From positions 1-36,217 of the forward strand of contig JARIEX010000019.1 of the NCBI GenBank assembly GCA_031127095.1: DNA of 36,217 nucleotides. Direction: 5' to 3'. Made by a program: the position numbers and the translations under genes. Source of the stretch: Gemmatimonadota bacterium (GTDB taxonomy: Bacteria > Gemmatimonadota > Gemmatimonadetes > Gemmatimonadales > Gemmatimonadaceae). Shown piece after piece: positions 5,735-33,695 of this stretch; position 1 is the first letter of the stretch, and the number at the start of each line of letters is the position of its first letter. The notes beneath the pieces were generated by a model. It was not told where the DNA came from and did not search any database. It saw only the letters and a program-made list of their open reading frames with translations.

Positions 5735-7306
5735 TCAGCGAATGGTCTCCCAGGCAATCGACGCAATCTCTCCCAGTGCCTGCCCCGCCAACGCCGCTGG
5801 ATCGGGGACTTTCGCGGCCACGTTGTTCACGTACACCGCAAACGCGATCTCCCGCCCGCTCTTCGTGGTGAAATAGCCGGCGAGCCCCTTGCCGTGCGTG
5901 ATCGAACGGCGGTTGAGTGGATCGTAGCTGCCGAACGTTCCGGTCTTGGCGAACACCTTCCCTGCGGCGGGGCTCCCCTTCTGGATGGCGGCCAGCGTCC
6001 CATCCACGCCCAGCGTCGGCAGCGCCGCCTTGAATCCCGCCGCATACGGGCGCTTCCACACCATCGCCAGAAAGCGTGTCATGAATGCCGGCGAGAAATA
6101 GGCGTCGCCCCCCGCTCCATCACCCTGCACCGCACCTTCCAGATCCAACCCGTTCCGTATCATGAGCTCACGCGCAATATCGAAGCCGGTGCGTGATGGT
6201 TCACGCGATGCGTCGAGCGCCGCCAGCGTAAGCGGCAGGTTACTGGCGTGCAGGTTCTGACTCGTCTTCAGCAGTACCCTCGCCTCGGCCAGCAGCGGCA
6301 GCGACACATGCTCGGCCACCAGCAGCGAGTCGGTGTACGCTGGGCGCAACGTCGCCGCGTCCACGGGGCGCGCGGCCAACCGCGGGATGGCCGCCACGCC
6401 GGCTGCCCGGAGCGCCTCGGCGAGCACGATCTCCCCGAAACGGCTCGGGACAGCAACGACCCACCGGGGATTCGACCGCGCTCCACGCGGCACCGTTCCG
6501 GTGATCACCAACACGCGATGGTCGCGGTTCGTGCTGTCTTCGACCATACGCAACGCGGAGGCCGACCCGCTGTCGCCGGTGGTCACGCGGGCTTGCACCG
6601 TCAGGTAGGGCGTCTGCGGGGACGCCGTCACGGTCGCCAACGCGCCCGCGGATTCGCCCGGCGTCACCACCAGATCGATCACGTTGTCGTTGATGACCAG
6701 CGGCGACATCGTCACCCGGGTGCCCAGTTCGCGTGCGCCCTCCGCGAACAGCGAGGCGTCCACGATCACCTGTCCTGTGACGCCGCGAATGCCGCGTGCC
6801 GCCGTCTGCGCCGCCAGCGCCTTGATCACGGTCAGCGGATCATCCGCCAGCGGCTGACCACCATACGAGTGATCCTGATCGATGAATGCGTACTGGCCGT
6901 CGGCACGCGCGCGCCCGGAGAGGTTGGGGTCCCCGCTCGCCACCAGCACCACGTCCCCCTGAACCACGCCGGCCACGATGGGTCCGGTGCGATACATCCT
7001 TGTGCGGAAGCGGTAGTCGGGACCCAGCACCTCCAGCGCAGTGGCCATCGTGACCACCTTGGTCGTTGAGCCGGGAACGAACAGTTTCTCGCTATTGACC
7101 GCAAAGACGGGTTGTCCCGATTGCAGGTCATAGAACTCCATGCCCCACGACGCGTGGGCAAACTCCGGCCGCGCCATCACCTCGGCGATACGTCGCGGGG
7201 GATTGGGTTGCGCCTCACTCGCCGCCGGCGCCGCCGACAGTGCAACGGCAAAAACAAAAGTCCAAGCCAACACCGTCGGCTTGGACAAGAAAGTGTGTTG
7301 AATCAT
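5735..7306 (-). CDS. dacB: D-alanyl-D-alanine carboxypeptidase/endopeptidase (PBP4, DacB type)
   Basis: A protein of 523 residues with a signal peptide ending near residue 32 (PAASEAQ). The three class-C penicillin-binding-protein motifs are intact: SxxK at S80-K83 (PGSTTK), SxN at S349-N351 (TSQN) and KTG at K454-G456 (AKTGTFG). The large insert between the first two motifs is typical of peptidase family S13. The enzyme removes the terminal D-alanine from peptidoglycan stem peptides or cuts D-Ala-mDAP cross-links in the periplasm. It lies 72 bp downstream of the SusD gene on the same strand and is probably in the SusC-SusD transcript. That suggests a digestive role, releasing peptides for uptake, in addition to or instead of wall housekeeping. 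Confidence 0.88.
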   Translation of the reverse strand: MIQHTFLSKPTVLAWTFVFAVALSAAPAASEAQPNPPRRIAEVMARPEFAHASWGMEFYDLQSGQPVFAVNSEKLFVPGSTTKVVTMATALEVLGPDYRFRTRMYRTGPIVAGVVQGDVVLVASGDPNLSGRARADGQYAFIDQDHSYGGQPLADDPLTVIKALAAQTAARGIRGVTGQVIVDASLFAEGARELGTRVTMSPLVINDNVIDLVVTPGESAGALATVTASPQTPYLTVQARVTTGDSGSASALRMVEDSTNRDHRVLVITGTVPRGARSNPRWVVAVPSRFGEIVLAEALRAAGVAAIPRLAARPVDAATLRPAYTDSLLVAEHVSLPLLAEARVLLKTSQNLHASNLPLTLAALDASREPSRTGFDIARELMIRNGLDLEGAVQGDGAGGDAYFSPAFMTRFLAMVWKRPYAAGFKAALPTLGVDGTLAAIQKGSPAAGKVFAKTGTFGSYDPLNRRSITHGKGLAGYFTTKSGREIAFAVYVNNVAAKVPDPAALAGQALGEIASIAWETIR

Positions 7307-7327
7307 GGAGAGATCCGGAAAAGGTCA

Positions 7328-7373
7328 GGGGGACGCCAACCACGTCGTCATCGACGTCGCCAACGCCCCCCCT
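7328..7373 (-). promoter_or_regulatory. Inverted-repeat region between the SusD and DacB-type genes
   Basis: A G-rich run near 7328 faces a C-rich run near 7372, and an inner ACGTCG-TCAT-CGACGT hairpin (7341-7356) lies between them. The structure could partly terminate transcription or protect the message between the two genes. It is modest and may have no function. Confidence 0.25.
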
Positions 7374-7378
7374 ATCGA

Positions 7379-8638
7379 TCAGCGATTCGTGCTCGGGTTG
7401 TTCAGCCGCTCCACATCCGGAAGCGGTAGGCACTTGTTGGAACCGTAGGTGCCACCGCCGTTGGGGAACACCGCTCCGTTCGCGGGAATCAGCGGGATGT
7501 TGAACCTGATGGTATCGAACAAGCGGTGCCCCTCGATGAAGAGCTCCCGACGGCGCTCCTGCAGCACCTGCGCGGCGATTTCCGACGCCACCGTGCTGCT
7601 GAACGCCGGCAGATTGGACGCTGTGCGCAACTGGTTGATCAGCTGCACCGCCACCGCGCCGCCCGCTACTTCCGCACGGATCAACGTCGCCTCACGCCAC
7701 GTCGCGATGGGGATCGGGTCATTCAGCGACTTGTACTTGTTCTGCACCCACAACCGCACCGACGGCATCGATCCCCCACGCCCGGCGTCGGTCACGTTCA
7801 CGCGCGGGTCCGTCACTCCACTCACCTGCTGCGCGCGGAACTGCGTATCCACCGTGACCGTGCCGGTGGTGTTGTTGAAGCGGAAGATGCGGTTTTCCGC
7901 ACGCCCGGCGGCCGACGTGGTCTTGGCCGTGTACACGAAGCCAACCGGAACCAGCGCCGCATCAGCGGCAGCTTCCGTGCGTTTTCCCTGATTGAGACGC
8001 GCCCGGGCGCGCCCCACCAGCGCCATGTTGCGTAAATCGGCTGGTGCTCCTGCGGCATTGATGACGCGCGTGAATCGCTCTTCGGCTAACGCGAACACGG
8101 CCGCCGGCTGAAGCTCCGCCCCAAGATCGAAGGCGCACGAGCAGAACATCTCTCCCATCAGCACGTAGCTGTAGCCGGCAAACGCGGCGGCCTGCGCCTG
8201 CAGCGCTGCCCGCCCGGGCACCTCGACGTCCGTCCACTTGTCGAGCAACCGCAATACTTGATCGGCCTGAAAGCGCGCGATCGAGAGTGGGGTGTACACG
8301 CCGAACCCGCCGCACCCGCCAGAGGCGTATAGCGACGTCGCCGGGAAGTTGGTTCGCCGGTCGATATCCCACGTCGCGGCGTTTGCTTGCGCGTCGGCAA
8401 ATTCATCAGCCAGCGTACCGCCGGTCAGAATGAAGTTCCCCAGCGCGCATTCGAAGTCGGCGACCGCTCCCGACACCAGTACGGTGGCATTCGACGGCTG
8501 CAGCAGGGTCTGTTCGAGGATACGACTTGGCGCCTCAACTTCGAGGAGCGTGCCGCAGGAAGACAGCCCCCCGGCGGCCAGCGCCACGACGGCCACCCGG
8601 GCAGCACGCGCCCGGAGACTACGCCTCAGATGTCTCAT
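7379..8638 (-). CDS. SusD/RagB-family surface lipoprotein
   Basis: A protein of 419 residues. A positively charged N-terminus (RHLRRSLRARAARV) and hydrophobic stretch end in the lipobox LSSC (C28), followed by the family's typical start GTLLEVEAPSRI. The rest is rich in helices. The C-terminal segment with RRRELFIEGHRLFDTIRFN is the conserved SusD/RagB signature. Such proteins cap the TonB-dependent SusC channel outside the cell and bind the substrate. I prefer the ATG at 8638; an in-frame ATG at 8647 would add three residues but has a poorer ribosome-binding site. The gene follows the SusC gene by less than 30 bp. The pair usually imports glycans or peptides; the neighbouring enzymes suggest peptides here. 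Confidence 0.85.
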   Translation of the reverse strand: MRHLRRSLRARAARVAVVALAAGGLSSCGTLLEVEAPSRILEQTLLQPSNATVLVSGAVADFECALGNFILTGGTLADEFADAQANAATWDIDRRTNFPATSLYASGGCGGFGVYTPLSIARFQADQVLRLLDKWTDVEVPGRAALQAQAAAFAGYSYVLMGEMFCSCAFDLGAELQPAAVFALAEERFTRVINAAGAPADLRNMALVGRARARLNQGKRTEAAADAALVPVGFVYTAKTTSAAGRAENRIFRFNNTTGTVTVDTQFRAQQVSGVTDPRVNVTDAGRGGSMPSVRLWVQNKYKSLNDPIPIATWREATLIRAEVAGGAVAVQLINQLRTASNLPAFSSTVASEIAAQVLQERRRELFIEGHRLFDTIRFNIPLIPANGAVFPNGGGTYGSNKCLPLPDVERLNNPSTNR

Positions 8639-8666
8639 GAACGTCATCTCGCGTTTGGGTGGATGA

Positions 8667-11600
8667 TTAGTAAGTCAGCGACACGGACAACAGCAGCTGC
8701 GCCAGCGGCGGCACCTGCGCTTGCTCCAGTCGCACGAATTGCTGCAGGGTAAAGAAGTTCTCCGGGTCCGTCCCCGGGTAATTCGTCCACAGCGCCAGGT
8801 TGCGTCCCGACAGTGTGAGCGACCCCGAGCGCGCCTTGACCAAGCGGGCGATGTTGGGACCCATCTGATACGCCACGGAGAGCTCCCGCAGCCTGGTGAA
8901 GCTGGCGTTCTGGTATACGAAGTTCCGCAGCACATTGGGCGACTGCACCTGCGCCACCAGTGCGGGGTCGTACTTCTCCGGCTCGTGGTTCGACATGCAC
9001 AGCGCGAACACCTGGCACCGCGCGCGGTCGTTGTTGTTGAGGGTCACATTGCCCCCCTTGAAGTCGACCTGTCCGTACAGTCTGAACCGCTTGAACAGCG
9101 TCACCGAGGCGTTGTACGAGCCCTCGAGTCCCGGGTCGGGCCGCCCGAGAAACACTCTGGGCGCCACCGCCTGTCCGCTGGCGTTCAGGCACGGTGTCGT
9201 TCCGCCCTTGCCGTTGTCGCAGAGCGCGTTGATCGCCCGCTTGGTCACCGGATCAAAGGTGGCCGAGACGACACGGAAGTCGTACCAGGAGGCCACCGGG
9301 CGACCCTTGATGTGCCGCTGCGCCCCGAACTGGATGTATTTCTCCCCGTTCTCGTCGAGCGGCAGCGGCAGGTCGCCCAGGTCCCGCACCTGGTTGTCAT
9401 TCTTCGAGATGTTGAAGCCCAGGTCAACATTCAGGTTCTCGCGCGCCACGGCGGCGTAGCGCATCGACAATTCCACGCCTTGGCTACGGATCTTGCCGAC
9501 GTTGATGAACCGATCACCGGCAAACCCCGCCGACGGCGCCACGGGCTGCGAGAGAATTCCGTCTTCGGTGTTGCGTCGATACAGCGTGAAATCCGCACTC
9601 AGACGGTCCTGCAGGAAAGTGCCGTCGAAGCCAACCTCCGTTTCCTTCCCTCGTTCCGGACGAAGGTCTGGATTGCCCAGCGACTGCGGGGACACCGCCG
9701 AGCTGCCGTTGCCGCCGGTGGTCGCCGAGTACGTGCGCAGCGCGGAGTTCACCACCGGCTGCTGCCCGGTTTCACCGTACGCCGACCGCAGTTTGAGCTG
9801 GTTCACCCACGCGAAGGGAAACCACGCCTCTTCACTGATGACCCACGTGCCCGCCACTTTGGGATAGGTGGTCCAGCTGAAGTCCTCGCCGAACGCGCTG
9901 TTGTTGTCCACGCGCAGCGCCGCCGTCAGATACGCCCGGTCGTTCAGGTTGACCTGATGCTGCCCGTAGAACCCCAGTGTGGCGTTTTCGAAGTAGTCCT
10001 CGCCGCCGAAGGTGGTGGCGGCTGCGTCCACCAACGTGAGACCACCCGCCGGGAAACCTTCACCACGTGCGGCGAGCGCGTAGGTCTGCCGCTTGAAGTA
10101 CTGGGCGCCGAAGGAGGTGCTCGTCTGCACGCCGAACAGCCGTCGCTTGGCGGTCGCCGCATAGTCCACCGACGAGACCGACAGCTCCTGTCGGCGCGTG
10201 AGCTTGTTGCCGTTCTGATCAACCGGGCTTCCGAAGAACTGCCGGTTGTACGGAGTCATGCGCTCCGTCTGGTTCACGTTGTCTTCACCCGTCAGGTCGT
10301 TACCGACGACGAGGCGCTGGGTGAGCCAGGTACCCACTCGGTGATTGAACTGCAGCGATGCCGTCGTGCGCTTCACGTTCTGATACTGTTTGAATGCTCC
10401 CCAGAACGCCTCCGGTGGCGCTGAATAGAAGCCGCGGCGCAGTTTCTCCGCGTCAGTGACTGGCGCTTGTCCGAAGTAGGCGGAGAACCACATCCCGCCG
10501 CCGGCCTCCAGCGGCACGTTGATCGTCTGCTGCGTGGTGTTGAAGGTCGCCTGAATATCGAGCGACTTGTACGGCGACAGGGAGATGTTGCCCGCGCCCG
10601 TCCACCGGGCGAGGTGGTTGGTGGGCTCGATGCCCTTATCGTTGTCGTAGCTGCCACTGAAGTTGTACTTCACGGCTTCGGTGCCACCGTTGAGGCCCGC
10701 GCTATACGACTGGGTCAGCCCGTTGGCGAAGAGCTCGCGTCCGGCTGCCCGCTCCGCGGCGACGGGGTTCCACCCGGCGATCGTCCCGTCCGGCATGCGA
10801 CGGTAGGTGGTGGGAATGCGGTTCTCCGCATCCTGAAACCAGTTGTTCCCCATCCGCGTGTTCGTGGTGAACACCGGGCGCCCCGCCTTGCCGCGCTTGG
10901 TGATGATCTGGATGACGCCATTGTTGGCTTCGGTGCCGTACAGCGTCGCCGCCGCGGGTCCCTTGATGACTTCAATACTCTCGATGTTCTCGGGGTCGAT
11001 GTCATTCAGGCGGGAGATGACACCCGAGGAGAAGAACTGCGAGCGCGGGCCCGTGGACACATCGTTCGCAATGCGGACGCCGTCGAGGTAGATGAGCGGC
11101 TGGTCGTTGAGCGACAGCGATGCGGCACCGCGGATGCGGATGCGCGGTCCCGACCCGATGGCGCCCGATCCGCCGGCAAGCACCACGCCGGCCGCACGGC
11201 CATTCAGCAGCGACGAGATGTCGGGCGACGGGGCGATGCTCTGAATCGCCGCAGCGTCGATCTTGGTGACGGAGTTGCCGATGGCGCGCTTCTCCACCGG
11301 CTCGGCCGTGCCGGTGATGACGACCTCGCTCAGGCTGTTGGGCTGTTCCGCGAGGAAGATGCGAATATCACTGCGCCCCACGGTCACCAACTGGGTGGTC
11401 GGCTTGTAACCGATGCGCCTGACCTGCAGCGTGACCTGCGCGCCGGAGATGGTGGAGAGACGGAAGCCGCCGTTGCCATCGGTGATGCCGCCGATGTTTG
11501 TCCCCTGCACGAGGACCTGGACGCCGTCGAGGCCGCGAAGGTTTTTCGCGTCGACGATCTGACCGCTGATCGTCCCCGACCCCTGTGCGCTGAGCGTCCG

Positions 11601-11708
11601 GGTCGGCGGGAGCAGCAATGCGACGGTCAGCAACGCGAGGTACCGGGCACAAACCAGTCGTCGCCTTTTCTCGGCGGGTTGGTTCAACAGCGGATGTTCC
11701 GAACTCAT
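8667..11708 (-). CDS. SusC/RagA-family TonB-dependent outer-membrane transporter
   Basis: A protein of 1013 residues. A signal peptide ends near LSAQG (residue 42). It is followed by a carboxypeptidase-regulatory-like beta-sandwich (SGQIVDAKNLRGLDGVQVLV, about 45-130), a TonB plug containing SLLNGRAAGVVL, RIRIRGAASL, PLIYLDGVRI and IEVIKGPAAATLYGTEANNG, then a long beta-barrel ending in LLSVSLTY. This is the order of SusC/RagA transporters, which move large substrates into the periplasm using TonB energy. AAAGGAGG lies 6 nt before the ATG. The SusD partner lies directly downstream. A palindromic operator candidate about 60 bp upstream and the divergent GntR gene suggest control by that regulator. 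Confidence 0.93.
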   Translation of the reverse strand: MSSEHPLLNQPAEKRRRLVCARYLALLTVALLLPPTRTLSAQGSGTISGQIVDAKNLRGLDGVQVLVQGTNIGGITDGNGGFRLSTISGAQVTLQVRRIGYKPTTQLVTVGRSDIRIFLAEQPNSLSEVVITGTAEPVEKRAIGNSVTKIDAAAIQSIAPSPDISSLLNGRAAGVVLAGGSGAIGSGPRIRIRGAASLSLNDQPLIYLDGVRIANDVSTGPRSQFFSSGVISRLNDIDPENIESIEVIKGPAAATLYGTEANNGVIQIITKRGKAGRPVFTTNTRMGNNWFQDAENRIPTTYRRMPDGTIAGWNPVAAERAAGRELFANGLTQSYSAGLNGGTEAVKYNFSGSYDNDKGIEPTNHLARWTGAGNISLSPYKSLDIQATFNTTQQTINVPLEAGGGMWFSAYFGQAPVTDAEKLRRGFYSAPPEAFWGAFKQYQNVKRTTASLQFNHRVGTWLTQRLVVGNDLTGEDNVNQTERMTPYNRQFFGSPVDQNGNKLTRRQELSVSSVDYAATAKRRLFGVQTSTSFGAQYFKRQTYALAARGEGFPAGGLTLVDAAATTFGGEDYFENATLGFYGQHQVNLNDRAYLTAALRVDNNSAFGEDFSWTTYPKVAGTWVISEEAWFPFAWVNQLKLRSAYGETGQQPVVNSALRTYSATTGGNGSSAVSPQSLGNPDLRPERGKETEVGFDGTFLQDRLSADFTLYRRNTEDGILSQPVAPSAGFAGDRFINVGKIRSQGVELSMRYAAVARENLNVDLGFNISKNDNQVRDLGDLPLPLDENGEKYIQFGAQRHIKGRPVASWYDFRVVSATFDPVTKRAINALCDNGKGGTTPCLNASGQAVAPRVFLGRPDPGLEGSYNASVTLFKRFRLYGQVDFKGGNVTLNNNDRARCQVFALCMSNHEPEKYDPALVAQVQSPNVLRNFVYQNASFTRLRELSVAYQMGPNIARLVKARSGSLTLSGRNLALWTNYPGTDPENFFTLQQFVRLEQAQVPPLAQLLLSVSLTY

Positions 11709-11714
11709 GCATCG

Positions 11715-11722
11715 CCTCCTTT
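11715..11722 (-). promoter_or_regulatory. Strong ribosome-binding site of the SusC gene
   Basis: On the minus strand this reads AAAGGAGG, a near-perfect Shine-Dalgarno sequence, 6 nt before the ATG at 11708. It fixes that start over the out-of-frame ATG at 11712. Confidence 0.75.
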
Positions 11723-11762
11723 CTCATACGGCGCGGGGGGGGTACTGCGAGAACTCAATGCA

Positions 11763-11785
11763 GTGTACAATACGGTATTCAATTA
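11763..11785. promoter_or_regulatory. Operator candidate upstream of the SusC gene
   Basis: This AT-rich patch in a GC-rich gap contains the perfect palindrome AATAC-G-GTATT (11769-11779) next to GTAC, about 60 bp before the SusC start and 195 bp before the divergent GntR gene. GntR/FCD regulators often bind short palindromes of this kind. Binding by the neighbouring regulator is inferred. Confidence 0.4.
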
Positions 11786-11974
11786 AAGGCACAAGAGGGG
11801 TGACCACTCGGCGCCTCGACTGCCCGCACACGACATGACCTGCCAAAACGGCTGCCAAGAACCACTGCTCGGCACGATGCGTGCGATCGACGCACGCCGA
11901 GCCCCTCACGAAATCGCCGTCTCGCTCCGGTCGGAGGGCACCACGCTCCGAGACGCCGCGACGGTGCCGCGGTG

Positions 11975-12679
11975 ATGGTCGAATCGACCATCCCGCGCAC
12001 GGAGATGATCGCGGAAGTGTTCCAGCGGCTGCGCCGGCTGATCGTGGAAGGGCATCTGGGACCGGGCGTCCGCTTGGTCGAGACCGAGTTGGCGACGCGG
12101 TTCGGCGTGAGCCGCACCCCGATCCGCACCGCGCTCTCTCAGCTCCGGCAGGAGGGTTTTGTCGAAGCGCTCGGAGAGGGGCGGCAGTCACGGCTGACGG
12201 TGACACCCGTGACGCGGCACGATGCCATCGAGATCTTCGGGATCGTGGGCGAGATCGAGGGGCTGGCGGCGCGCTGGGCCGCGGGTTTGCCGGAACCGAC
12301 GCGAGCGGCGCTAGTGACACAGCTGGAGCAGCTCAACGCCGCGATGGCGGCTGCCGCGACACAGTCGCCGCCCGACGCGCTCGAGACCATCCGGCTGGAC
12401 ACTGCGTTCCACCGCGAGTACGTGCTGGCTGGCGCCGGTCGGCGGCTGCGGTCGTTCCACGAGTCGATCAAGCCGCAGGCGGACCGCTTCATCTACGTCT
12501 ACCACACGACCCTGACCACCGGTGTCATCGTATCGACAGGGGAGCACGCCGTCATCATCGGCGCGATTCGCGACGGCGACGCCGCGGGTGCGCATCGGGC
12601 GGTGCGGAGTAATTGGGAGAACGCGGCGGCGCGACTCAGCACGTCCATCACGCTCGTGGGCGAGCGAGGCGTGTCGTGA
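11975..12679 (+). CDS. GntR-family transcriptional regulator with FCD domain
   Basis: A protein of 234 residues. The N-terminal winged helix-turn-helix (about 8-75) carries the GntR signature RLVETELATRFGVSRTPIRT. The C-terminal all-helical FCD domain (about 85-222) has the expected metal-site histidines in DTAFHREY, GEHAVIIGAI and GAHRAVRSNW. FCD regulators sense small carboxylates, sugars or amino acids and usually repress nearby catabolic genes. Start choice: GTG at 11972 is directly followed by ATG at 11975, and neither has a good Shine-Dalgarno sequence. The stop codon overlaps the start of the lipoprotein gene by 4 nt, so regulator and two hydrolases form one operon, divergent from the SusC operon. 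This arrangement suggests it controls both. Confidence 0.88.
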   Translation: MVESTIPRTEMIAEVFQRLRRLIVEGHLGPGVRLVETELATRFGVSRTPIRTALSQLRQEGFVEALGEGRQSRLTVTPVTRHDAIEIFGIVGEIEGLAARWAAGLPEPTRAALVTQLEQLNAAMAAAATQSPPDALETIRLDTAFHREYVLAGAGRRLRSFHESIKPQADRFIYVYHTTLTTGVIVSTGEHAVIIGAIRDGDAAGAHRAVRSNWENAAARLSTSITLVGERGVS

Positions 12680-13962
12680 CGCGCCCCGTGCGCCGCCGCG
12701 AGGCGTGGGCCGCGTGCGCCGCCGCCGTGATGCTTGCGGCGTGCAGCGCGGCGCCTGCCAGTCCGACGTCGCCCCCGCCACCCGTCGTGCCGACGATGCC
12801 GCTCAGCGGCCTCGCGATCCCTGGCATGACGAGCGTCGACCAGGTGATGGCGCGGCTCATGACGAACTGGGACATCCCGGGCGGCGCAGTCGGCATCGTG
12901 AAGGACGGGCGGCTCGTGTATGCACGCGGCTTCGGCTACGCGGACGCGGAGGCGAAGCGCGTCGCCTCGCCCGACGCGCTGTTCCGGATCGCGAGTCTGT
13001 CGAAGCCGATCACTGCAGCGGCCGTGCTCCGGCTCGTGGAGCAGAACCGCCTCTCGCTTGACGCGAAGGCCTTCGCGCTGCTGAGCGACCTCAAGCCGCT
13101 GGCCGGCGCGACGGGAGACCCGCGCATCGCGGACATCACCGTACGCCACCTGCTGCAGCATGCCGGGGGCTGGGACCGCGATGCAAGCTTTGACCCGATG
13201 TTCCGGTCGACCGAGATCGCGGCGGCGGCGAACACGCCCATGCCCGCGAGCGCCGAGGCGGTCATCCGCTACATGCTCGGCCAGCGCCTCGACTTCGATC
13301 CGGGGACGCGCTACGCCTATTCGAACTTCGGCTACGCGGTGCTCGGTCGCATCATCGAGCGCGTGACCGCCGGCCCCTATGACAAGTTCGTGCAGGATGC
13401 GGTGCTGGCGCCGGCCGGCATCCGCCGCATGCGGCTCGGCCGTTCGCTCTACGCCGACCGCGCGCCCGACGAGGTGCGCTACTATGACCAAGCATCGCTC
13501 AATTCGGTGTTCGGCGGCGGTGCCGTACCCGCCCCCTACGGTGGCTTCAACCTCGAGGCGATGGACGCACACGGCGGCTGGGTCGCGTCGACCGTCGACC
13601 TGCTGCGCTTCGCCACCGCGGTCGACCGACTGCCCACGCGACCGGACATCCTCGCCGGTGCGACGCTGGACATGATGACGGCCAAACCGCCGTCCCCGCT
13701 CTGGGACGGCTCGGCGTTCTACTACGGCATGGGCTGGCTCGTGCGCCCCGCGGAGCGGAACTGGTGGCACACCGGATCGCTTCCTGGTACCGCGTCGATC
13801 ATGGTGCGCACGGGGACCGGGCTTGCGTGGGTGGCGCTCTTCAACGCGCGCGCGATCAAGCCCAACTCCACGTTCCAAAGCGAGATCGACGGCGCGATGT
13901 GGCAGGCGGTGAATGGTGTCACCGAGTGGCCCGCGCACGACCTGTTTTCGACCTTCCCATGA
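12676..13962 (+). CDS. Beta-lactamase-fold serine hydrolase, probable lipoprotein
   Basis: A protein of 428 residues starting at GTG 12676; GTGA fuses this start with the stop of the GntR gene (12677-12679), which decides the start. The N-terminus has several arginines, a hydrophobic stretch and the lipobox LAAC (C23), so the protein is probably membrane-anchored. The class-C beta-lactamase/DD-peptidase motifs are present: SLSK (S107-K110), YSN (Y215-N217) and HTG (in WWHTGSLPG). Relatives include D-aminopeptidases, DD-carboxypeptidases, esterases and beta-lactamases. In this locus a D-amino-acid peptidase is the likeliest role, but motifs alone do not settle the substrate. It overlaps the next gene by ATGA. 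Confidence 0.85.
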   Translation: MTRPVRRREAWAACAAAVMLAACSAAPASPTSPPPPVVPTMPLSGLAIPGMTSVDQVMARLMTNWDIPGGAVGIVKDGRLVYARGFGYADAEAKRVASPDALFRIASLSKPITAAAVLRLVEQNRLSLDAKAFALLSDLKPLAGATGDPRIADITVRHLLQHAGGWDRDASFDPMFRSTEIAAAANTPMPASAEAVIRYMLGQRLDFDPGTRYAYSNFGYAVLGRIIERVTAGPYDKFVQDAVLAPAGIRRMRLGRSLYADRAPDEVRYYDQASLNSVFGGGAVPAPYGGFNLEAMDAHGGWVASTVDLLRFATAVDRLPTRPDILAGATLDMMTAKPPSPLWDGSAFYYGMGWLVRPAERNWWHTGSLPGTASIMVRTGTGLAWVALFNARAIKPNSTFQSEIDGAMWQAVNGVTEWPAHDLFSTFP

Positions 13963-16373
13963 CGATGAGCCTGATGCCTCGCGCCCCTCGCGTGCTCGCC
14001 GCGCGCACCCTCGCTACCGCGCTATTGCTTGCGCCCCTCTCACGCTCGGTGGCGCAGGCTGCGCCGGGCATGCCCACGGATTACTCGCGCGCCATCCGGC
14101 GGCTCGATTCGCTCGTCGCGCGCGAGGTCGCCGACAAGCGGCTGCCCGGCCTCTCCATTGCGCTGGTGGACGACCAGCGCACAGTGTGGTCGCGCGGCTA
14201 CGGCATCGAGCGCGTCGATCCGGCCGTGCCGGCGACGAGTGAAACGGTTCACCGCGTCGGCTCCGTCTCGAAGCTGTTCACGGACATCGCCGTGATGCAG
14301 CTCGTCGAGCGCGGCGTGTTGGATCTCGACGCGCCGGTGTCGCGGTACGTGGGCGACGTGCTGCCCGACGGGGGCAACGCCCCGCGCATCACCCTCCGGC
14401 AGCTCATGTCGCATCGCTCGGGCCTCCTGCGCGAGCCGCCCGCCGGCCACTACTTCGATTCCACCGGCACCACGCTTGCGGCCACTGTGGCGAGTCTGCG
14501 CGGCACGTCGCTCGTCTACCAGCCGGGCACGCGCACGAAGTACTCCAACGCCGGCATCGCGGTGGTGGGCTACGCGCTCGAGCGCACACAGCAGCAGCCG
14601 TTCGCGGACTACGTACAGCGCGCGGTGCTGCAGCCGATGGGGCTCGCGCACAGCGCGTTCACGCCCGAGCCCGCGCTCACGCGGCACCTCGCCGATGCCG
14701 TGATGTGGAGCTACGACAACCGGGAGTGGGCAGCACCCACGTTCGGTCTCGGCATGGCGCCGGCCGGCAGCATGTACACGACCGTAGACGATCTGGCGCG
14801 ATTCGTCTCGGTGCTCTTCGCCGGTGGGCGTGGCCCCGCTGGACAGGTGATTGCGCGCGCGACGCTCGACTCCATGTGGACGCCGCAGTTCGCCGCTCCC
14901 GGCGCCACGTCCGGCTACGGCCTCGGCTTCGCGCTCTCGCAGTTCGACGGACGCCGCCGTGTGTCGCACGGCGGCGCGATCTACGGCTTCTCCACCGAGC
15001 TGTCGGCGTTGCCGGACGACCGGCTCGGCGTCGTCGTGGTGGCCACCGCCGACGGCGCCAACGACGTGGTGTCTCACATCGCGGACGAGGCGCTCCGGTT
15101 GATGCGCGCGGCGCGCGCCGGTCTGCCGCTGCCCGACATCGAGCGCACGACGACGCTGGCGCCCGAGACCGCGCGCCGTCTCGCCGGTCGCTATGGCATG
15201 GGGGAGCGCGCCGTGGACCTGGTCGAGCAGTCCGGCCGACTCTTCATGCTGCCCACGCGCGGCGGATTCCGCGCCGAGCTGCGCGCGCTGACCGACAGCA
15301 CACTCATGGCCGACGACCGGCTGTCGTACGGCACGCGCGTGCGCCTGCTGCACGACGGCCTCGCGTTGGGCACCGACACGCTGCGGCGGGTGGAACTCCA
15401 GATGCCGCCGGCCGCACGCGCGGCGTGGCGGCCGATCATCGGCGAGTACGGCTGGGACTACAACACGCTCTTCTTGCTGGAGCGCGACGGCCGCCTGAAC
15501 GCGCTGGTCGAGTGGTTCTATCAGTACCCGCTCACCGAGGTCTCGCGCGACGTGTACGCGTTCCCCGCGTGGGGTCTGTACGATGGTGAACGCGTGGAGC
15601 TGCGGCGCGACGCCAGCGGCCGCGTGACCGAAGCGATCATGGCGGGCGTGCACTTCCCGCGACGCGCCGTGGGCACCGAGGACGGCTCGCAATTCACCAT
15701 CACCCCCGTGCGTCCGGTCGCCGAGCTTCGCGCCGTCGCGCTGGCCGCAACGCCGCCCACGGAGACGGGCCCCTTCCGTGCCGTGGACTTCGTATCGCTG
15801 CCGAGCCTCGATCCCTCGATCAAGCTCGACGTGCGGTACGCCACGTCGAACAACTTCATGGGCACGCCGTTCTACTCGTCGGCGCGCGCGTTTATGCAGC
15901 GCCCTGCCGCTGAAGCGGTCGCCCGCGCGTCCCGCACGCTGCGGGCGCACGGCTACGGGCTGCTGGTGCACGATGCGTATCGCCCGTGGTACGTGACCAA
16001 GATGTTCTGGGACGGCACGCCGGCGGCGCAGCACGTTTTCGTGGCGGACCCGTCGCAGGGCTCGCGCCACAACCGCGGCGCGGCGGTGGACATCACGCTG
16101 TACGACCTGAAGACGGGCCGGCCGATCGAGATGCCGGGGGGCTACGACGAGATGTCGAGCCGCAGCTACCCGGACTATCCCGGCGGGACCTCACTCCAGC
16201 GCTGGCATCGCGCGCTGCTACGTCGTGCCATGCAGGCGGAAGGCTTTACGGTGTACGACGCCGAGTGGTGGCACTTCGACTTCAACGACTGGCGCCAGTA
16301 TCCCATCGGGACCGCCACATTTGAGGAAATCGAGCGCGCAGCCGGCCGGCGCGGGGGCACGCGATCACGCTGA
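13959..16373 (+). CDS. Two-domain enzyme: beta-lactamase-fold hydrolase fused to VanX-type D-Ala-D-Ala dipeptidase
   Basis: A protein of 804 residues starting in the ATGA overlap with the previous stop. A signal peptide ends near VAQAAP (residue 35). The first domain (about 45-400) has the serine-hydrolase motifs SVSK (S102-K105), YSN (Y195-N197) and HGG (VSHGGAIYGF). A beta-rich middle part (about 400-600) resembles the C-terminal extension of other such hydrolases. The last about 195 residues match the M15D dipeptidase family: LDVRYAT, VHDAYRPW with the substrate-binding arginine, SRHNRGAAVD (zinc ligands H704 and D711) and EWWH (E769, zinc ligand H772). VanX cuts free D-Ala-D-Ala. The fusion could release D-amino-acid dipeptides from larger peptides and then split them. 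There is no sign of frameshift across the junction. Confidence 0.88.
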   Translation: MTMSLMPRAPRVLAARTLATALLLAPLSRSVAQAAPGMPTDYSRAIRRLDSLVAREVADKRLPGLSIALVDDQRTVWSRGYGIERVDPAVPATSETVHRVGSVSKLFTDIAVMQLVERGVLDLDAPVSRYVGDVLPDGGNAPRITLRQLMSHRSGLLREPPAGHYFDSTGTTLAATVASLRGTSLVYQPGTRTKYSNAGIAVVGYALERTQQQPFADYVQRAVLQPMGLAHSAFTPEPALTRHLADAVMWSYDNREWAAPTFGLGMAPAGSMYTTVDDLARFVSVLFAGGRGPAGQVIARATLDSMWTPQFAAPGATSGYGLGFALSQFDGRRRVSHGGAIYGFSTELSALPDDRLGVVVVATADGANDVVSHIADEALRLMRAARAGLPLPDIERTTTLAPETARRLAGRYGMGERAVDLVEQSGRLFMLPTRGGFRAELRALTDSTLMADDRLSYGTRVRLLHDGLALGTDTLRRVELQMPPAARAAWRPIIGEYGWDYNTLFLLERDGRLNALVEWFYQYPLTEVSRDVYAFPAWGLYDGERVELRRDASGRVTEAIMAGVHFPRRAVGTEDGSQFTITPVRPVAELRAVALAATPPTETGPFRAVDFVSLPSLDPSIKLDVRYATSNNFMGTPFYSSARAFMQRPAAEAVARASRTLRAHGYGLLVHDAYRPWYVTKMFWDGTPAAQHVFVADPSQGSRHNRGAAVDITLYDLKTGRPIEMPGGYDEMSSRSYPDYPGGTSLQRWHRALLRRAMQAEGFTVYDAEWWHFDFNDWRQYPIGTATFEEIERAAGRRGGTRSR

Positions 16374-16399
16374 ACGGCGCAGCGCCGCTCAGCGTGATC
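16363..16399. terminator. Hairpin terminator overlapping the stop codon of the VanX-fusion gene
   Basis: The arms at 16363-16380 and 16382-16399 are 18 nt each with a single mismatch. The TGA stop (16371-16373) lies inside the left arm. The element sits between convergent genes and lacks a T-run, so a terminator role is inferred from position and stability. Confidence 0.6.
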
Positions 16400-16629
16400 A
16401 TCCGTGCAGCAGCCCGTGGGGGGCTTTCATCCGGCCTACGTCCCAGTACTGCGCGTCAGCCGGGCCCAGTGCGTCAGTGCATGCCCAATCCGTTGCCGCG
16501 TCACCCGCCCGTCTCCGCTGGCAACGGAAGCGCCAGCAACCGCGCGATCGTCAGTACCACAGGGCATCACGTATACGTCAAGGGCTCCGAAGGGAGGGTG
16601 ACGGGAATTTCGCGCCGGTGGCGCACACG
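16400..16629. other. Convergent intergenic region
   Basis: About 230 bp between the terminator hairpin and the stop of the deacylase gene. I see no gene. It contains a 10-bp palindrome ACGTATACGT (16569-16578), similar to half of the operator candidate near 18.3 kb, but no gene starts here. Confidence 0.3.
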
Positions 16630-18279
16630 TTACCTCACCCCGTCCCAGCCGGGGCCGCGCAGCACGGTGCCGGGCTTGGCGCCGGTGGACTTCCCTCCCT
16701 CCAGCACCACGCTGCCGTTCACCAGCACATGGCTGATCCCCTCGCTGGGGAGCGCCGGCTCGGCGAAGGTGGCGCGATCGCGGATGCGGAGCGGGTCGAA
16801 CACCACGATGTCAGCGGCCAGCCCCGGGGACAGGCGCCCGCGGTCGTAGGCACCGATCTCGTTGGCCGCCACCGCGGAGGCCTTGTGGACCGCCTCCTCC
16901 AGGGTGAGGACGCCGAGCTCGCGGACGTAGCGGGCGAAGATTCGCGGGAACGCGCCCCACGCGCGCGGATGCGACGCCACCGACGAGCCCCCCGCAGGGC
17001 CGACATCGGTGTCGAACGACGTGAACGGCTCGCGCATGGCCTTGATCTTGTTGGCCTCACTCATGGATTGCGGCATGGCGAACGCCTCGCGCTGCGCGAT
17101 GTCGAAGAACACCGTCCACGCGTCCTTCCCGGTGCGATCGGCGATCCCCTGAACCGACAGCCCGTTGTGCGCCTTGTAGTCATCGTGCTGGATGTTCCCC
17201 AGCACGATGCGGTTCCAGTCCTTGCCGGCGTGTGCGTACCAGTTCTCCCACCCGCTCTCTGTCTCCATCTCGGCGCGCATCCGCGCACGGACGGCCGGGT
17301 CCTTGAGCGATTCCATCAGCGCGCGCTGGCCGCGCTCGGCGTTGCGGGGGTGCAGCAGCGCGCGAATCCCCAGCCCATTGTTGATGTAGGGGTACACGTC
17401 CACCGCCACGTCCTGCCCCGCAGCGCGGGCGGCACGGATGCGCGCGATGGCCAGGTCCATCTTCCCCCAGTTCCCCTCGCCTGCAGTCTTCAAGTGGTAG
17501 ATGTGCACGGGGGTGTTGGCGGCGGCACCGATCCGCAGCGCCTCGTCAATCGCCTCGATGAGGCGGTCCCCCTCGTTGCGCATGTGCGTGTAGTAGCGCC
17601 CACCGTGTCGCCCGGCGACGGCGGCTAGGGCGGCGATCTCCTCCTCGCTGGCGAAGATGGCCGGTGGGTAGATGAGCGAGGTGGAGAGCCCGATGGCACC
17701 GGCCTGCATGGCCTCTTCCACGTAGGCGCGCATGCGGTCCAGCTCGGCGGGGGTGGCCTGTCGCGCGGAGTCGCCGATGACGAGGCGGCGCAGCTGCGTA
17801 TGCCCCACGTTCTGCGCCACGTTGAGGGGCATGCCGGCGGCTTCCAGCTTGCGGAAGTACTCGCGCATGGTGCGCCAGCCGCGGAGCTGCGCGCCCCCCC
17901 CTTCCAGAGGAGCGGACGAGCCCCCCTCGCCAGCCTGGATGGTGGTGACCCCCTGGGTGAGGAGGTTGATGGCGGCCTCGCCGCCGCGGTCGATGAACAT
18001 CTCGCCGCTCTGCCCCATCATGTCGATGAAGCCAGGGGCAACGACCTGGTCGGCCACGTTGATGACGCGCTTGGCGCGGGCGGGATCGAGGCGTCCGATG
18101 GCGGCGATGCGGCCGTTGGCGATGGCCAGGTCGGCCTGATAGGAGGGGGCGCCAGTGCCGTCCACAATGCGCCCGCCCTGAAGGATGAGGTCGAAGGCGG
18201 GGGTGGGCGCTGGTTGCGCGGCGAGGGGGGCGGCCAGGAGGGCGAGGAGGGCCAGCGCGCGGCGTGGGAATCGTGGCAT
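16630..18279 (-). CDS. Exported N-acyl-D-amino-acid deacylase-family amidohydrolase with altered metal motif
   Basis: A protein of 549 residues with a signal peptide (ALALLALLAAPLAAQ, residues 8-22). The family start QGGRIVDGTGAPSYQADLAI is clear. Later family segments are present: GVTTIQAGEGG, YYTHMRNEGD, VHIYHLKTAG and SHPRAWGAFPRI. D-aminoacylases hydrolyse N-acyl-D-amino acids or related amides. Here the first metal motif (PGFIDVHxH in classical members) reads PGFIDMMGQ, so both histidines are replaced by M88 and Q90, and the cysteine position in the GNCG loop reads GEGG. The two later histidines are kept. The enzyme may therefore use one metal ion or different ligands. An upstream in-frame ATG at 18330 would start inside the operator palindrome and precede the signal peptide, so 18279 is preferred. 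Confidence 0.8.
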   Translation of the reverse strand: MPRFPRRALALLALLAAPLAAQPAPTPAFDLILQGGRIVDGTGAPSYQADLAIANGRIAAIGRLDPARAKRVINVADQVVAPGFIDMMGQSGEMFIDRGGEAAINLLTQGVTTIQAGEGGSSAPLEGGGAQLRGWRTMREYFRKLEAAGMPLNVAQNVGHTQLRRLVIGDSARQATPAELDRMRAYVEEAMQAGAIGLSTSLIYPPAIFASEEEIAALAAVAGRHGGRYYTHMRNEGDRLIEAIDEALRIGAAANTPVHIYHLKTAGEGNWGKMDLAIARIRAARAAGQDVAVDVYPYINNGLGIRALLHPRNAERGQRALMESLKDPAVRARMRAEMETESGWENWYAHAGKDWNRIVLGNIQHDDYKAHNGLSVQGIADRTGKDAWTVFFDIAQREAFAMPQSMSEANKIKAMREPFTSFDTDVGPAGGSSVASHPRAWGAFPRIFARYVRELGVLTLEEAVHKASAVAANEIGAYDRGRLSPGLAADIVVFDPLRIRDRATFAEPALPSEGISHVLVNGSVVLEGGKSTGAKPGTVLRGPGWDGVR

Positions 18280-18653
18280 GGCGTCGGGGAAGAGGAGGGG
18301 CGCCGATCTCGTATACGAATTCGTATACAATTGGCGTCAAGCTTGCGCGCCAGCGCTCACCCTGTCAACGAGCGGGACGCGCTCACCCCTCGACGGAACG
18401 AACAGTCGTCGTCCTTCCGCAGACACCGCGATCTCGTCCGGGACACAGGCGCCCAGTGCAGCGACGACGGTGAGCGAACGCGCGGCGATTCGCAGGGGAT
18501 CGATGGTTGCGGTACACGCGCGCGCGAGCGGCGATGTTGCGTGCACATCGCTCTCACGAGGGTGGAGACGCGGACGTACTGTTTGAGCGACAGCTGCCGA
18601 TCGATCCATCAGTCTGCTCAGCGCATCTCTCATCACGCTTCGCCGGAGTTCGC
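18280..18653. other. Divergent intergenic region
   Basis: 374 bp between the deacylase (minus) and the DmpA-type gene (plus). Apart from the 18-bp palindrome I see no defined feature. A 99-codon open frame on the minus strand (18337-18636) has no recognisable domain and is not called a gene. Confidence 0.4.
18311..18328. promoter_or_regulatory. Perfect 18-bp palindrome, operator candidate
   Basis: GTATACGAATTCGTATAC reads the same on both strands and stands out by its AT content. It lies 32-49 bp before the deacylase start and about 325 bp before the divergent DmpA-type gene. Its shape fits a dimeric repressor of the GntR type, and the GntR/FCD gene 6 kb away is the obvious candidate; that link is inferred. 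Confidence 0.6.
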
Positions 18654-19868
18654 ATGCGTTCTCTTTCTATCACCCTCGCGTTGCTGCTTGCCGGTGTGTC
18701 CTCGCTGGGTGCGCAGCGCAAGCCGCGCGAGCACGATCTCAAGCTGCCCATCGGCGGCACGCCCGGCGCGTTGAATGCCATCACGGACGTGGCCGGTGTG
18801 GAAGTCGGGCACAGTACGATCATTGCCGGCAGCGGCACGCTGGTGGTTGGACAGGGGCCGGTACGCACGGGAGTGACCGTCGTACATCCGCGCGGCAGGG
18901 CCAATCATGATCCGGTGTTCGCGTCGTGGTTTGCGCTCAACGGCAACGGCGAAATGACGGGCACGACGTGGATCACGGAGAGCGGGTTCCTTGAAGGGCC
19001 CATCGGCATCACCAACACGCACAGCGTGGGCGTGGTGCGCGACGCCATCATCAAGTGGGAAGTCTCGCAGAAGAACGTGCTGCAGCCGTGGTGGCTGCCG
19101 GTGGTCGCCGAGACGTACGACGGTGGCCTGAACGACATCAATGGTTTCCACGTGAAGGAATCGCACGCATTCGCCGCGCTCGATGGCGCCGCGGGCGGCC
19201 TCCCCGCCGAAGGCGCGGTGGGCGGCGGCACCGGCATGCGCTGCCTCGGTTTCAAGGGCGGCATTGGCACCGCGTCACGCACACTGCCGGCGGCGCAGGG
19301 TGGCTACACCGTGGGCGTGCTCGTGCAGTGCAACTTCGGTTCGCGCCGCGATCTGCGGATCGCCGGAGTGCCGGTGGGCGAGGAGATTTCCAACCTGCAG
19401 CCGTGCATTGCCAACACCGAGCCCGCGCCGGCGAGCGCCACCGTGCGGCGATGTGACGCGCCCACTGACCGGGACGCGACCGACGCGCCGGAACAGGGCT
19501 CGATCATCGTGGTGGTCGCGACCGATGCGCCGCTGCTGCCGCATCAACTCAAGCGCGTGGCGACGCGCGTGTCGTTGGGCATTGGCCGACAGGGGGGATT
19601 CGGCGGGAACGGTTCCGGCGACATCTTCGTGGCCTTCTCCACCGCCAATACCAACAGCTGGTCGTCAGACTCGGTGTCGTCGGTGCGGATGGTGAACAAC
19701 GAGCGCCTCTCACCGATCTTTCAGGCAACGGCACAGGCCACCGAGGCCGCCATCACCAACGCGCTGCTCGCCGCCGAGACCATGACCGGCGCCAACGATT
19801 TGCGTATATACGCGATGCCGCTGGATCGTATGCTGGCCGCGATGCGCAAGTACGGGCGGTTGCCCTGA
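18654..19868 (+). CDS. DmpA-type aminopeptidase/D-esterase (peptidase family S58/P1)
   Basis: A protein of 404 residues with a signal peptide ending at SSLGAQ (residue 21). Family hallmarks: GALNAITDVAGVEVGHSTI at the start, GNGEMTGTTW, GAVGGGTGMRCLGFKGGIGTAS, YTVGVLVQCNFGSRRDLRI, and the autocleavage region EQGSIIVVVATDAPLLPHQL. In DmpA a Gly-Ser bond is cleaved and the serine becomes the N-terminal nucleophile; here this is G282-S283. DmpA removes N-terminal L-residues and also hydrolyses D-amino-acid amides and esters; relatives act on beta-peptides. Export and position beside the deacylase and VanX-fusion genes suggest work on D-amino-acid peptides. I chose ATG 18654, with GGAG upstream, because the signal peptide begins there. 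Confidence 0.88.
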   Translation: MRSLSITLALLLAGVSSLGAQRKPREHDLKLPIGGTPGALNAITDVAGVEVGHSTIIAGSGTLVVGQGPVRTGVTVVHPRGRANHDPVFASWFALNGNGEMTGTTWITESGFLEGPIGITNTHSVGVVRDAIIKWEVSQKNVLQPWWLPVVAETYDGGLNDINGFHVKESHAFAALDGAAGGLPAEGAVGGGTGMRCLGFKGGIGTASRTLPAAQGGYTVGVLVQCNFGSRRDLRIAGVPVGEEISNLQPCIANTEPAPASATVRRCDAPTDRDATDAPEQGSIIVVVATDAPLLPHQLKRVATRVSLGIGRQGGFGGNGSGDIFVAFSTANTNSWSSDSVSSVRMVNNERLSPIFQATAQATEAAITNALLAAETMTGANDLRIYAMPLDRMLAAMRKYGRLP

Positions 19869-20131: not shown

Positions 20132-21139
20132 CTACTGGCGTCGGTTCGTGGTGGTCCTCCTGCCAAACCGGATTTCATTCGTATCTCGAAAGCACGCTGC
20201 AAAGTCTTCGTACGTGTCATATCCCAACGGCTTCATATGTGCGTCCCACTTTTGTTGCAAGAACGCCAGGGCCTCATCATTGAATTGCTGCGGATGCGCT
20301 TGTACCGCCACTTTCGCCCCTGGCGCGAGCTGCGAAAGGTCGGCGACTCGACCTAATGTCCTGGCGCGCTCATAGGGTTCATCGAACAGCGTCATGTGTT
20401 GAGCCATGAAGGCTTTGGTACTCATCGCGAGTGTCTTGTCCATCAACTCGGGCGTCACGGGCCCAAGGCCCATAAAGTCTGCAATACGATGAATATTTTC
20501 CTCCATGTTCTTCACAAGATCTTCATACACCAATAACAAAACGGACGGGCAGTCTTTGAGCACATGATACTCTTGGTAGTATTCCCAGATGCTCGCCCGG
20601 CCTTCTCGTCCTTGAATAAACGGAGTTTGCATGAGAAACGAAGATGCGTCCATCGACGTGGCAATGGGTACCTGTTTCGCCAAAAAAAAGTTGTAAAAAG
20701 AGATCGCTGTCTTGGCTGGATCTCTCACGGTGACAATGTACTTGCAACCCCGATGGACACTGGCCATCCGCAAATGAGATTTGAAGACGCGTGGAAAGAA
20801 TTGGCTGCCCTCCACATTGGGATCATAGCCAATATCCCAGGATAACAGAGGCCAGGGAACGACCTCATACAGTGTCTTCATCGATGCAAAATCGACCGTT
20901 GCACCCGTGCGAAGGACATGGCAAAGCCACGTCACCAAGGTTGTGCCTGTTTTGGCAAAAGTCGACACGATGATGTCCGTTGGCCGTACTCGAAACTCTT
21001 CGACGGCTTTTCGGACAGACTCGTTCGACATCATGGTGTCGGGATGGCCGATCGGTATGTACAGAAGCTCGGCGGGCAACGGTGCAATCTCCGCAGGATT
21101 CGAGGCAGCATTGCCCATGGTCGTAAATGAAAGGGTCAT
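20132..21139 (-). CDS. PAPS-dependent sulfotransferase, AT-rich and probably acquired
   Basis: A protein of 335 residues of the sulfotransferase family (Pfam Sulfotransfer_1). The 5'-phosphosulfate loop reads VSTFAKTGTTLVTWL, corresponding to the usual YPKSGTTW, and the 3'-phosphate site reads VTVRDPAKTAISFYNFF. Such enzymes move sulfate from PAPS to an alcohol or amine. The acceptor is unknown, and the relatives I recall include the eukaryotic cytosolic type. Base composition differs strikingly from its neighbours: bases 20641-20700 are about 43% GC, with A-runs. The ATG at 21139 is chosen because the upstream in-frame extension is GC-rich and non-homologous; ATG 21118 is also possible. An attC-like site lies just behind its 5' end, so the gene may be a cassette. 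Confidence 0.85.
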   Translation of the reverse strand: MTLSFTTMGNAASNPAEIAPLPAELLYIPIGHPDTMMSNESVRKAVEEFRVRPTDIIVSTFAKTGTTLVTWLCHVLRTGATVDFASMKTLYEVVPWPLLSWDIGYDPNVEGSQFFPRVFKSHLRMASVHRGCKYIVTVRDPAKTAISFYNFFLAKQVPIATSMDASSFLMQTPFIQGREGRASIWEYYQEYHVLKDCPSVLLLVYEDLVKNMEENIHRIADFMGLGPVTPELMDKTLAMSTKAFMAQHMTLFDEPYERARTLGRVADLSQLAPGAKVAVQAHPQQFNDEALAFLQQKWDAHMKPLGYDTYEDFAACFRDTNEIRFGRRTTTNRRQ

Positions 21140-21248
21140 CCGGAGATTCCGAGAAACGCGGCGCGAATCGTGAGGAAGAAGTAGGCATCGTCGCGATACC
21201 CGTCGGCGACGCGCTGATCCTGCAATCAAGTCGGCGTCTGCCACAGAC

Positions 21249-21341
21249 ATCCAACGCCTGGCGTTCTGCCGCGGGCGATCACAATAAGTCGCGAGCGCAG
21301 CGAGCATCCACTTCGTCCGACTGCAGCACGCATCGTTATGC
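21249..21341 (+). other. attC-like integron recombination site 1
   Basis: A 93-bp element. The left core is ATCCAAC (RYYYAAC form, 21249-21255), followed by GCCTGGCGTTCTGCCGCGG. The right part is CGTCCGACTGCAGCACGC, then the core GTTATGC (21335-21341). The inner arms GCGTTCTGC and GCAGCACGC pair at 8 of 9 positions. The same layout and the 15-nt stretch CCGACTGCAGCACGC recur at 31696-31788. This is how integron attC sites are built. No integrase gene is in the window. The stop codon of the HigA-type gene lies inside the right core. Confidence 0.5.
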
Positions 21342-21809: not shown

Positions 21810-21908
21810 GCATAACGCCTATCATGCCGCCCTCCCACCAATGGTACGGGGTCGCTGGCGCCTCACGCGTCGAGCCGGCGCGTCCGATTGCTCCCCGCGG
21901 GGGCGGCC
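21810..21908 (+). other. Degenerate attC-like site 2
   Basis: It begins with GCATAAC-GCCTATC (21810-21823), has TGCCGCC, and about 71 nt later CGTCCGATTGC, matching CGTCCGACTGC of site 1. The left core GCATAAC is the exact complement of GTTATGC at the end of site 1, as expected for the two ends of one cassette carrying the HigA-type gene. The right core is not preserved (GGCGGCC). Confidence 0.35.
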
Positions 21909-22010
21909 CCCACCGTGACCGCCGTTCCAACGGCGCTCAACGCGCACGAGCGAGACAGAGGGCACGCCGCCGCCCGTCACGCGGCGATGGCGAGGTTGGC
22001 GATCGCGCCG

Positions 22011-22059
22011 TATTCTCGGCGGGTAGTCAACACACCCCGATGGAAGTTCGTATCCCGCC
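22011..22059 (+). repeat. Dispersed repeat, copy 2
   Basis: TATTCTC, a 16-nt spacer, then ACCCCGATGGAAGTTCGTATC. The closest relative is copy 1, including the spacer (about 10 of 16 positions). It ends 17 bp before the start of the serine hydrolase gene, so here it could also contain the promoter or leader. Confidence 0.5.
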
Positions 22060-22076
22060 TTGGAGTGCCGTCCCAC

Positions 22077-33579: not shown

Positions 33580-33674
33580 GGTTCCTTCAGGACAATGTGT
33601 GGTTCTAGGAGTCAGCTCTTCAAACGAGTCGTCGCGAGGAACGCCCGCATCCGATCTTCCGTTGCCTGTTGTCG

Positions 33675-33695
33675 GCCGAACGCCTATGAGACGGC
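33675..33695 (-). terminator. Weak hairpin downstream of the MazF-type gene
   Basis: Short arms GCCG and CGGC close a loop of about 13 nt just behind the toxin stop at 33696. It could be a weak terminator. The enclosed AACGCCTAT also occurs in attC-like site 2, but the rest of an attC is missing. Confidence 0.2.

Follow-up and report, generated by a model that had tools for sequence, protein, structure and literature searches.

In E. coli the ddpXABCDF genes serve the use of D,D-dipeptides, pairing a VanX-type D-Ala-D-Ala dipeptidase with dedicated uptake, while a set of GNAT, racemase and M20 proteins, the N-succinylamino-acid racemase pathway, was reportedly described by Sakai in 2006 as a route of D-to-L inversion. 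D-amino acids from bacterial cell walls form a persistent share of soil and marine organic nitrogen, and to our knowledge loci dedicated to the uptake of D-peptides are hardly known. A parallel D-to-L route through DgcN/DgcA is cited in a passage of PMC12363236, RagAB of Porphyromonas gingivalis imports peptides through the outer membrane by a SusCD-type system (PMC11817032), and in marine bacteria a TonB-dependent transporter beside a D-aminoacylase is predicted from genome context to take up N-acyl-D-amino acids, a system of one transporter and one enzyme for which the portion of PMC3400609 at hand mentions no SusD, VanX, DacB, racemase trio or regulator. Here we describe a stretch of 36,217 nucleotides (the window; contig C160 of a 3.5-Mb Gemmatimonadota genome in 229 contigs) in which a SusC/SusD pair lies among genes for a DacB-type DD-peptidase, a GntR/FCD regulator, beta-lactamase-fold proteins, a VanX domain and a D-aminoacylase-type amidohydrolase. 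It probably holds a SusCD-type utilisation locus for D-amino-acid-containing peptides, the likeliest substrates being released peptidoglycan stem peptides and D-Ala-D-Ala.

Like polysaccharide utilisation loci, the window joins SusC and SusD to exported degradative enzymes and a local regulator, but these enzymes are peptidases and amidohydrolases, and no glycoside hydrolase, lyase or carbohydrate-binding match was found in the 17 window proteins scanned. With SusC and SusD as neighbours on one strand, the locus is a SusCD utilisation locus in the broad sense and not a polysaccharide utilisation locus in the strict one. With ddpXABCDF it shares a VanX-type dipeptidase and dedicated uptake, whereas the ABC permease of that system is replaced by SusCD and by an APC amino-acid permease, present beside the module in relatives, VanX is fused to an exported beta-lactamase fold, and the regulator is of the GntR/FCD family; no linked ABC D,D-dipeptide permease was found among the window proteins scanned. 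An open-access literature search returned no description of SusCD with VanX, DacB or the racemase trio; the novelty lies in how the parts are combined, in the way this combination recurs, and in the fusions and the operator.

An earlier note, made from the letters of the window, had named eight gene families at 5735-19868, and Pfam/NCBIfam profile searches bear out all of them (Table 1). The operon overlaps that it described are also present, as are divergent gene pairs. The plus-strand trio of regulator, lipoprotein and beta-lactamase/VanX fusion is tightly coupled by ATGA/GTGA overlaps, the lipoprotein GTG overlapping the GntR stop (12676-12679, stop at 12677-12679) and the ATG of the fusion overlapping the lipoprotein stop (13959-13962, stop at 13960-13962). 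A gap of 19 bp separates SusC from SusD on the minus strand and DacB follows 72 bp further on, while SusC/GntR and amidohydrolase/DmpA form divergent pairs. Seven products, all but GntR, have signal-peptide or lipobox-like N-termini as judged by eye, which fits periplasmic processing of an imported substrate.

Neighbourhoods were compared by using the fusion, SusD, permease and racemase proteins as queries against as many as 100 genomes of Gemmatimonadales (about 60 for other proteins) and annotating about 85 regions with a simple codon-based gene caller and BLAST to a reference set; G and L numbers are our handles for genomes and loci. SusCD, the beta-lactamase/VanX fusion, the APC permease, GntR/FCD regulators, D-aminoacylase-type amidohydrolases and racemase/GNAT/M20 genes recur together in shuffled order. 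Permease, SusC, SusD and fusion run in one direction in G054, G057 and three named Gemmatimonadota contigs (L110, L126, L153). In the close relative G027, SusC-SusD faces lipoprotein-fusion-permease at a locus with no DacB or GntR gene. The order is SusC-SusD-DacB-GNAT-racemase in another close relative, G012, and in G092, which belongs to a different family of Gemmatimonadales, DacB-SusC-SusD-beta-lactamase and GNAT-racemase-M20 are divergently arranged, so that DacB adjoins SusCD in both. Racemase and GNAT, mostly with M20, accompany SusCD in seven further genomes (G062, G059, G045, G044, G042, G049, G019) and at a second locus of the window genome, C207, and these loci usually also have an APC permease, a GntR/FCD gene and D-aminoacylase-type amidohydrolases. 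The SusC proteins of the window and C207 are 39% identical, and the differing gene order and SusCD lineage argue for at least two associations. The claim that the families belong together therefore holds for a core (SusCD, beta-lactamase/VanX, DacB, GntR/FCD, amidohydrolase) that recurs together or fused in relatives and in other phyla, while the fixed set of eight genes gives way to shuffled and partial sets.

Fourteen genomes have full-length fusions, and in 5 of these SusD is found no more than 10 kb away (0.25 expected under random placement); the permease is near the fusions in 5 (0.06 expected) and the racemase is near SusD in 10 of 41 (0.75 expected), by a test that ignores the kinship of the genomes and so treats events that are not independent. 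Better evidence comes from the shuffled order and from fusions in other phyla, where full-length orthologs of the beta-lactamase/VanX fusion turned up, among about 85,000 species genomes scanned, in Acidobacteriota, Planctomycetota, Bacteroidota and other groups. In Ca. Acidiferrales (L097) DacB and the amidohydrolase form a single 1087-residue open reading frame (ORF) that overlaps the beta-lactamase/VanX gene, with a permease upstream; in Pirellulales (L160) an amidohydrolase 59% identical to that of the window is fused to a lipoprotein-type beta-lactamase and followed by beta-lactamase/VanX; and in Stieleria (L148) a beta-lactamase, VanX and a second beta-lactamase make one protein, overlapping an enolase-superfamily gene. 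In Planctomycetota, then, a domain like that of the window lipoprotein is joined either to the amidohydrolase or to beta-lactamase/VanX. Through these three fusions four of the window enzymes are physically joined elsewhere, and DacB immediately follows beta-lactamase/VanX in two more loci (L173, L165). That hydrolase-rich Gemmatimonadota genomes merely juxtapose such genes without joint function, beta-lactamase-fold and Amidohydro_3 proteins being abundant, is hardly credible for the core (SusCD, beta-lactamase/VanX, GntR, DacB, amidohydrolase), where placement enrichment, repeated fusions in other phyla and a common operator largely refute it; for DmpA, unlinked elsewhere, it stands. The grouping of the core genes is not chance. 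A DUF5916/CBM9 protein also lies beside or near the beta-lactamase/VanX fusion in at least six loci (L053 15478-17820, L056 1185, L063 11196, L064 6459, L126 16298, L153 12346).

The D-amino-acid theme of the earlier note is strengthened by the racemase/GNAT/M20 genes and the amino-acid permease of related loci. At C207 (L082/L083, 4449-23197) an adjacent racemase-GNAT pair diverges from SusC-SusD-S15-beta-lactamase/abhydrolase-GntR-beta-lactamase-M19-amidohydrolase-M20-permease, so that M20 lies within the divergent SusCD operon, and the locus has a regulator of the GntR/FCD family and the TTGTATACAA operator in common with the window. None of the racemase trio is in the window itself, and C207 may be the more complete D-peptide locus. 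The likeness to the N-succinylamino-acid racemase pathway and the DgcN/DgcA route lies in the same three families, found at C207 and contiguous in many relatives; the difference is that they here stand within SusCD loci with VanX, DacB and the GntR/FCD operator. The racemase was also considered as the menaquinone enzyme MenC, for it passes the TIGR01928 cutoff, yet its distribution is patchy, with 49 of 100 genomes having it, and its neighbours are GNAT and M20, and a catabolic role is preferred, though not proven, on this context.

The same loci bear on whether the system is specific for D-residues at all. The SusC/SusD pair is what the window has in common with RagAB and BT2263-2264, RagA and BT2264 being among the PDB relatives of its SusC by sequence only, and the sister loci hold S9, S15, M19 and M28 peptidases and a general APC permease. 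A general peptide-utilisation locus could thus be envisaged, in which SusCD, like RagAB, takes up mixed (mostly L-) peptides and the D-capable hydrolases are one part of a broad set. We consider this rather unlikely, since VanX, DacB, the beta-lactamase fold and the D-aminoacylase type, the most recurrent and mutually fused genes, are all D-capable families, and for L-peptides a racemase/GNAT/M20 trio would serve no evident purpose. RagAB itself has no known linkage with genes for VanX, DacB, a D-aminoacylase-type enzyme or a racemase, and no known dedication to D-residues.

The catalytic motifs of VanX and DacB are intact. The VanX domain, aligned to 1r44, has the M15D motifs DAYRPW, SRHNRGAAVD and EWWHFD, and its catalytic Arg, His, Asp, Glu and His are invariant across 12 orthologs, while its scores lie below the curated NCBIfam equivalog cutoffs (144 vs 176 bits for NF007557, D-Ala-D-Ala dipeptidase; 98 vs 320 for the VanX model). 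DacB retains the S13 motifs STTK, SQN and KTG and exceeds the TIGR00666 (PBP4) cutoff (157 vs 108 bits). In the beta-lactamase-fold domains SxxK and YSN are retained and HxG stands in place of KTG (SLSK, YSN and HTG in the lipoprotein). Such families would also suit a locus facing the cell's own wall, in peptidoglycan remodelling or in defence against beta-lactams, glycopeptides or D-peptide antibiotics, with SusCD incidental: peptidoglycan precursors are substrates of the DacB (PBP4) and VanX families, and in G027 and G017 the fusion has a class A beta-lactamase close by. This is quite improbable, because the genome has three S13 proteins, among which the DacB of the window diverges most, so that housekeeping can fall to the other two, because the fusion looks exported and no VanA-type ligase or VanH dehydrogenase, as in vanHAX, is found among the window proteins scanned, and because the linkage of SusCD, amino-acid permease and racemase suits catabolism better. 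Near the 5' end of DacB a strong hairpin (12 pairs and a T-tract, z = -3.2) falls in the first codons, so that read-through from SusCD is uncertain and DacB may be less transcribed than SusCD; it possibly marks attenuation between SusCD and DacB, or the DacB start lies later.

The regulatory evidence comes from TTGTATACAA, an AT-rich palindrome that surfaced in a palindrome search of intergenic regions. With one mismatch at most it gave 14 intergenic hits, spread over promoter regions in 13 of the 24 loci associated with GntR, whereas 19 other palindromes of matching composition gave 0-1. It is missing from most of the true control loci; L183, L184 and L185, initially taken as controls, do bear it but proved to lie at GntR homologs. 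The whole 3.5-Mb genome has nine sites, compared with three for a reversed control pattern. Three of the nine are in the window and C207, all upstream of module genes: two at C207, one between GNAT and SusC and one after GntR, and one strong copy in the window, at 18321, in tandem with 18309 and 5' of the amidohydrolase, whose G012 ortholog has two GTATAC cores upstream at identical spacing. At least four of the remaining sites are inside predicted ORFs. At two mismatches the motif is not significant in the window alone, and its weight derives from the pattern across loci. Relatives of the window GntR/FCD protein sit in module loci, and this protein presumably binds TTGTATACAA as a putative operator. 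In two loci with no other module genes nearby (L183 9306, L184 9847), a GntR/FCD homolog and a distantly related APC permease (28%) flank a perfect copy, an arrangement that suggests an amino-acid-responsive regulator family. A GC-rich palindrome (CGCCG with a 1-nt gap), seen in seven loci, was discarded, since such repeats are to be expected where DNA is GC-rich (maximum in shuffles 3-5), and a sigma-70 promoter scan gave no signal above shuffles.

Taken along the presumed path of the substrate, SusC and SusD would carry peptide across the outer membrane, and DacB and the beta-lactamase-fold hydrolases would cleave D,D- or D-terminal bonds in the periplasm, where the VanX domain could split D-Ala-D-Ala-like dipeptides and the variant amidohydrolase take off a further D-residue or N-acyl group. 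The APC permease would then bring free D-amino acids into the cytosol, for GNAT, N-acylamino-acid racemase and M20 hydrolase to turn into L-forms, the cytosolic inversion and amino-acid import being encoded in this genome at C207. We infer the substrates, the order of the steps and the direction of regulation from the observed genes, motifs, recurrent linkage, fusions and operator distribution. On about even chances, an undescribed regulon common among Gemmatimonadales may exist in which GntR/FCD at TTGTATACAA controls a full D-peptide catabolic route from dead-cell peptidoglycan, covering SusCD import, D-specific periplasmic cleavage by DacB, beta-lactamase/VanX and the variant amidohydrolase, amino-acid uptake and cytosolic D-to-L inversion.

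Several points weigh against a dedicated D-peptide locus, besides the dependence among genomes in the placement counts. Many beta-lactamase/VanX fusions have no SusCD nearby (G032, G049, G063, G069, G074), orthologs of the window amidohydrolase and DacB are often unlinked, and with the additional peptidases of the sister loci the substrates may include ordinary L-peptides. The SusC/GntR promoter has only a degenerate candidate operator, some of which is kept by the orthologs in G012 and G027, and no site at up to one mismatch. Finally, the amidohydrolase, which the earlier note had placed in the N-acyl-D-amino-acid deacylase family, is D-aminoacylase-like (273 bits with 1rjq) but departs from AfDam-like enzymes in its metal ligands, HxH being replaced by GFIDMMGQS and the zinc-ligand Cys by Glu (GEGG), which makes that label uncertain. 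The other His ligands (THMRNEG, HLKTAG) and the catalytic Asp (TD) are kept as in those enzymes. The variant site is common to most module amidohydrolases across phyla (with homologs in L065, L068, L097, L143, L160 and L174), pointing to a distinct amidohydrolase clade, and a sister branch of the D-aminoacylases deacetylates an amino-sugar acid (PMC12017989).

The view that every enzyme family is known for D-residue substrates is weakened further in that Amidohydro_3 and S58 are not D-specific families. The S58 protein has BapA (330 bits) and DmpA (310 bits) as closest solved relatives, for neither of which D-specificity is strict. Membership of DmpA in the cluster is not supported: its orthologs in nine genomes stand apart from the module, and the 91% ortholog in G027 (L192) sits with AKR and beta-lactamase-DUF3471 proteins, both encoded in the right flank of the window, part of which thus travels with DmpA. 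This flank is hydrolase-rich, with two more proteins that join a beta-lactamase fold to DUF3471, at 21888-23741 and 31909-34098, and with DPPIV and an asparaginase-2 protein. It also holds a sulfotransferase-domain gene (20132-21307; G+C down to 0.59, weak codon bias), possibly acquired, and a 1015-residue APH kinase, M23 and class III aminotransferase protein (24409-27456; NCBIfam PRK06148 above cutoff).

Table 1. Genes and candidate regulatory elements of the SusCD locus and its immediate surroundings in the window
Feature	Position	Strand	Evidence
DacB-type S13/PBP4 DD-peptidase, exported	5735-7306	-	Pfam S13 3e-57
SusD-like lid lipoprotein	7379-8647	-	Pfam SusD_RagB 4e-9; orthologs up to 94%
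SusC/RagA TonB-dependent transporter	8667-11708	-	TIGR04056 463 bits, cutoff 368
GntR/FCD transcription regulator	11972-12679	+	Pfam GntR and FCD
Beta-lactamase-fold lipoprotein	ORF 12613-13962, GTG start 12676	+	Pfam 6.5e-62; lipobox LAAC
Beta-lactamase fold and VanX (Peptidase_M15) fusion, exported	13959-16373	+	Pfam
D-aminoacylase-type amidohydrolase (Amidohydro_3), exported	ORF 16630-18330, gene 16630-18279	-	Pfam, PDB match
DmpA/BapA-type Peptidase_S58 aminopeptidase	18507-19868, likely start 18654	+	Pfam 2e-113
Terminator-like 12-bp stem-loop, then TTTTGTTTTT	7260-7286	-	inside first codons of DacB ORF
Degenerate operator candidate 5' of SusC, reverse strand TTGAATACCGTATTGTACA	11764-11786		alignment with G012 and G027 orthologs
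Tandem operator candidate TCGTATACGA / TCGTATACAA	18309-18330		30-51 bp upstream of amidohydrolase start

An uptake system famed for sugars thus seems to have been rebuilt for D-peptides. If this is true, the reading of SusCD loci would have to extend beyond systems for glycans or L-peptides, the role of the 'beta-lactamase/VanX' genes that are widespread in uncultured soil phyla would be nutrition and not resistance, and a specific operator would let the regulon be counted in metagenomes.

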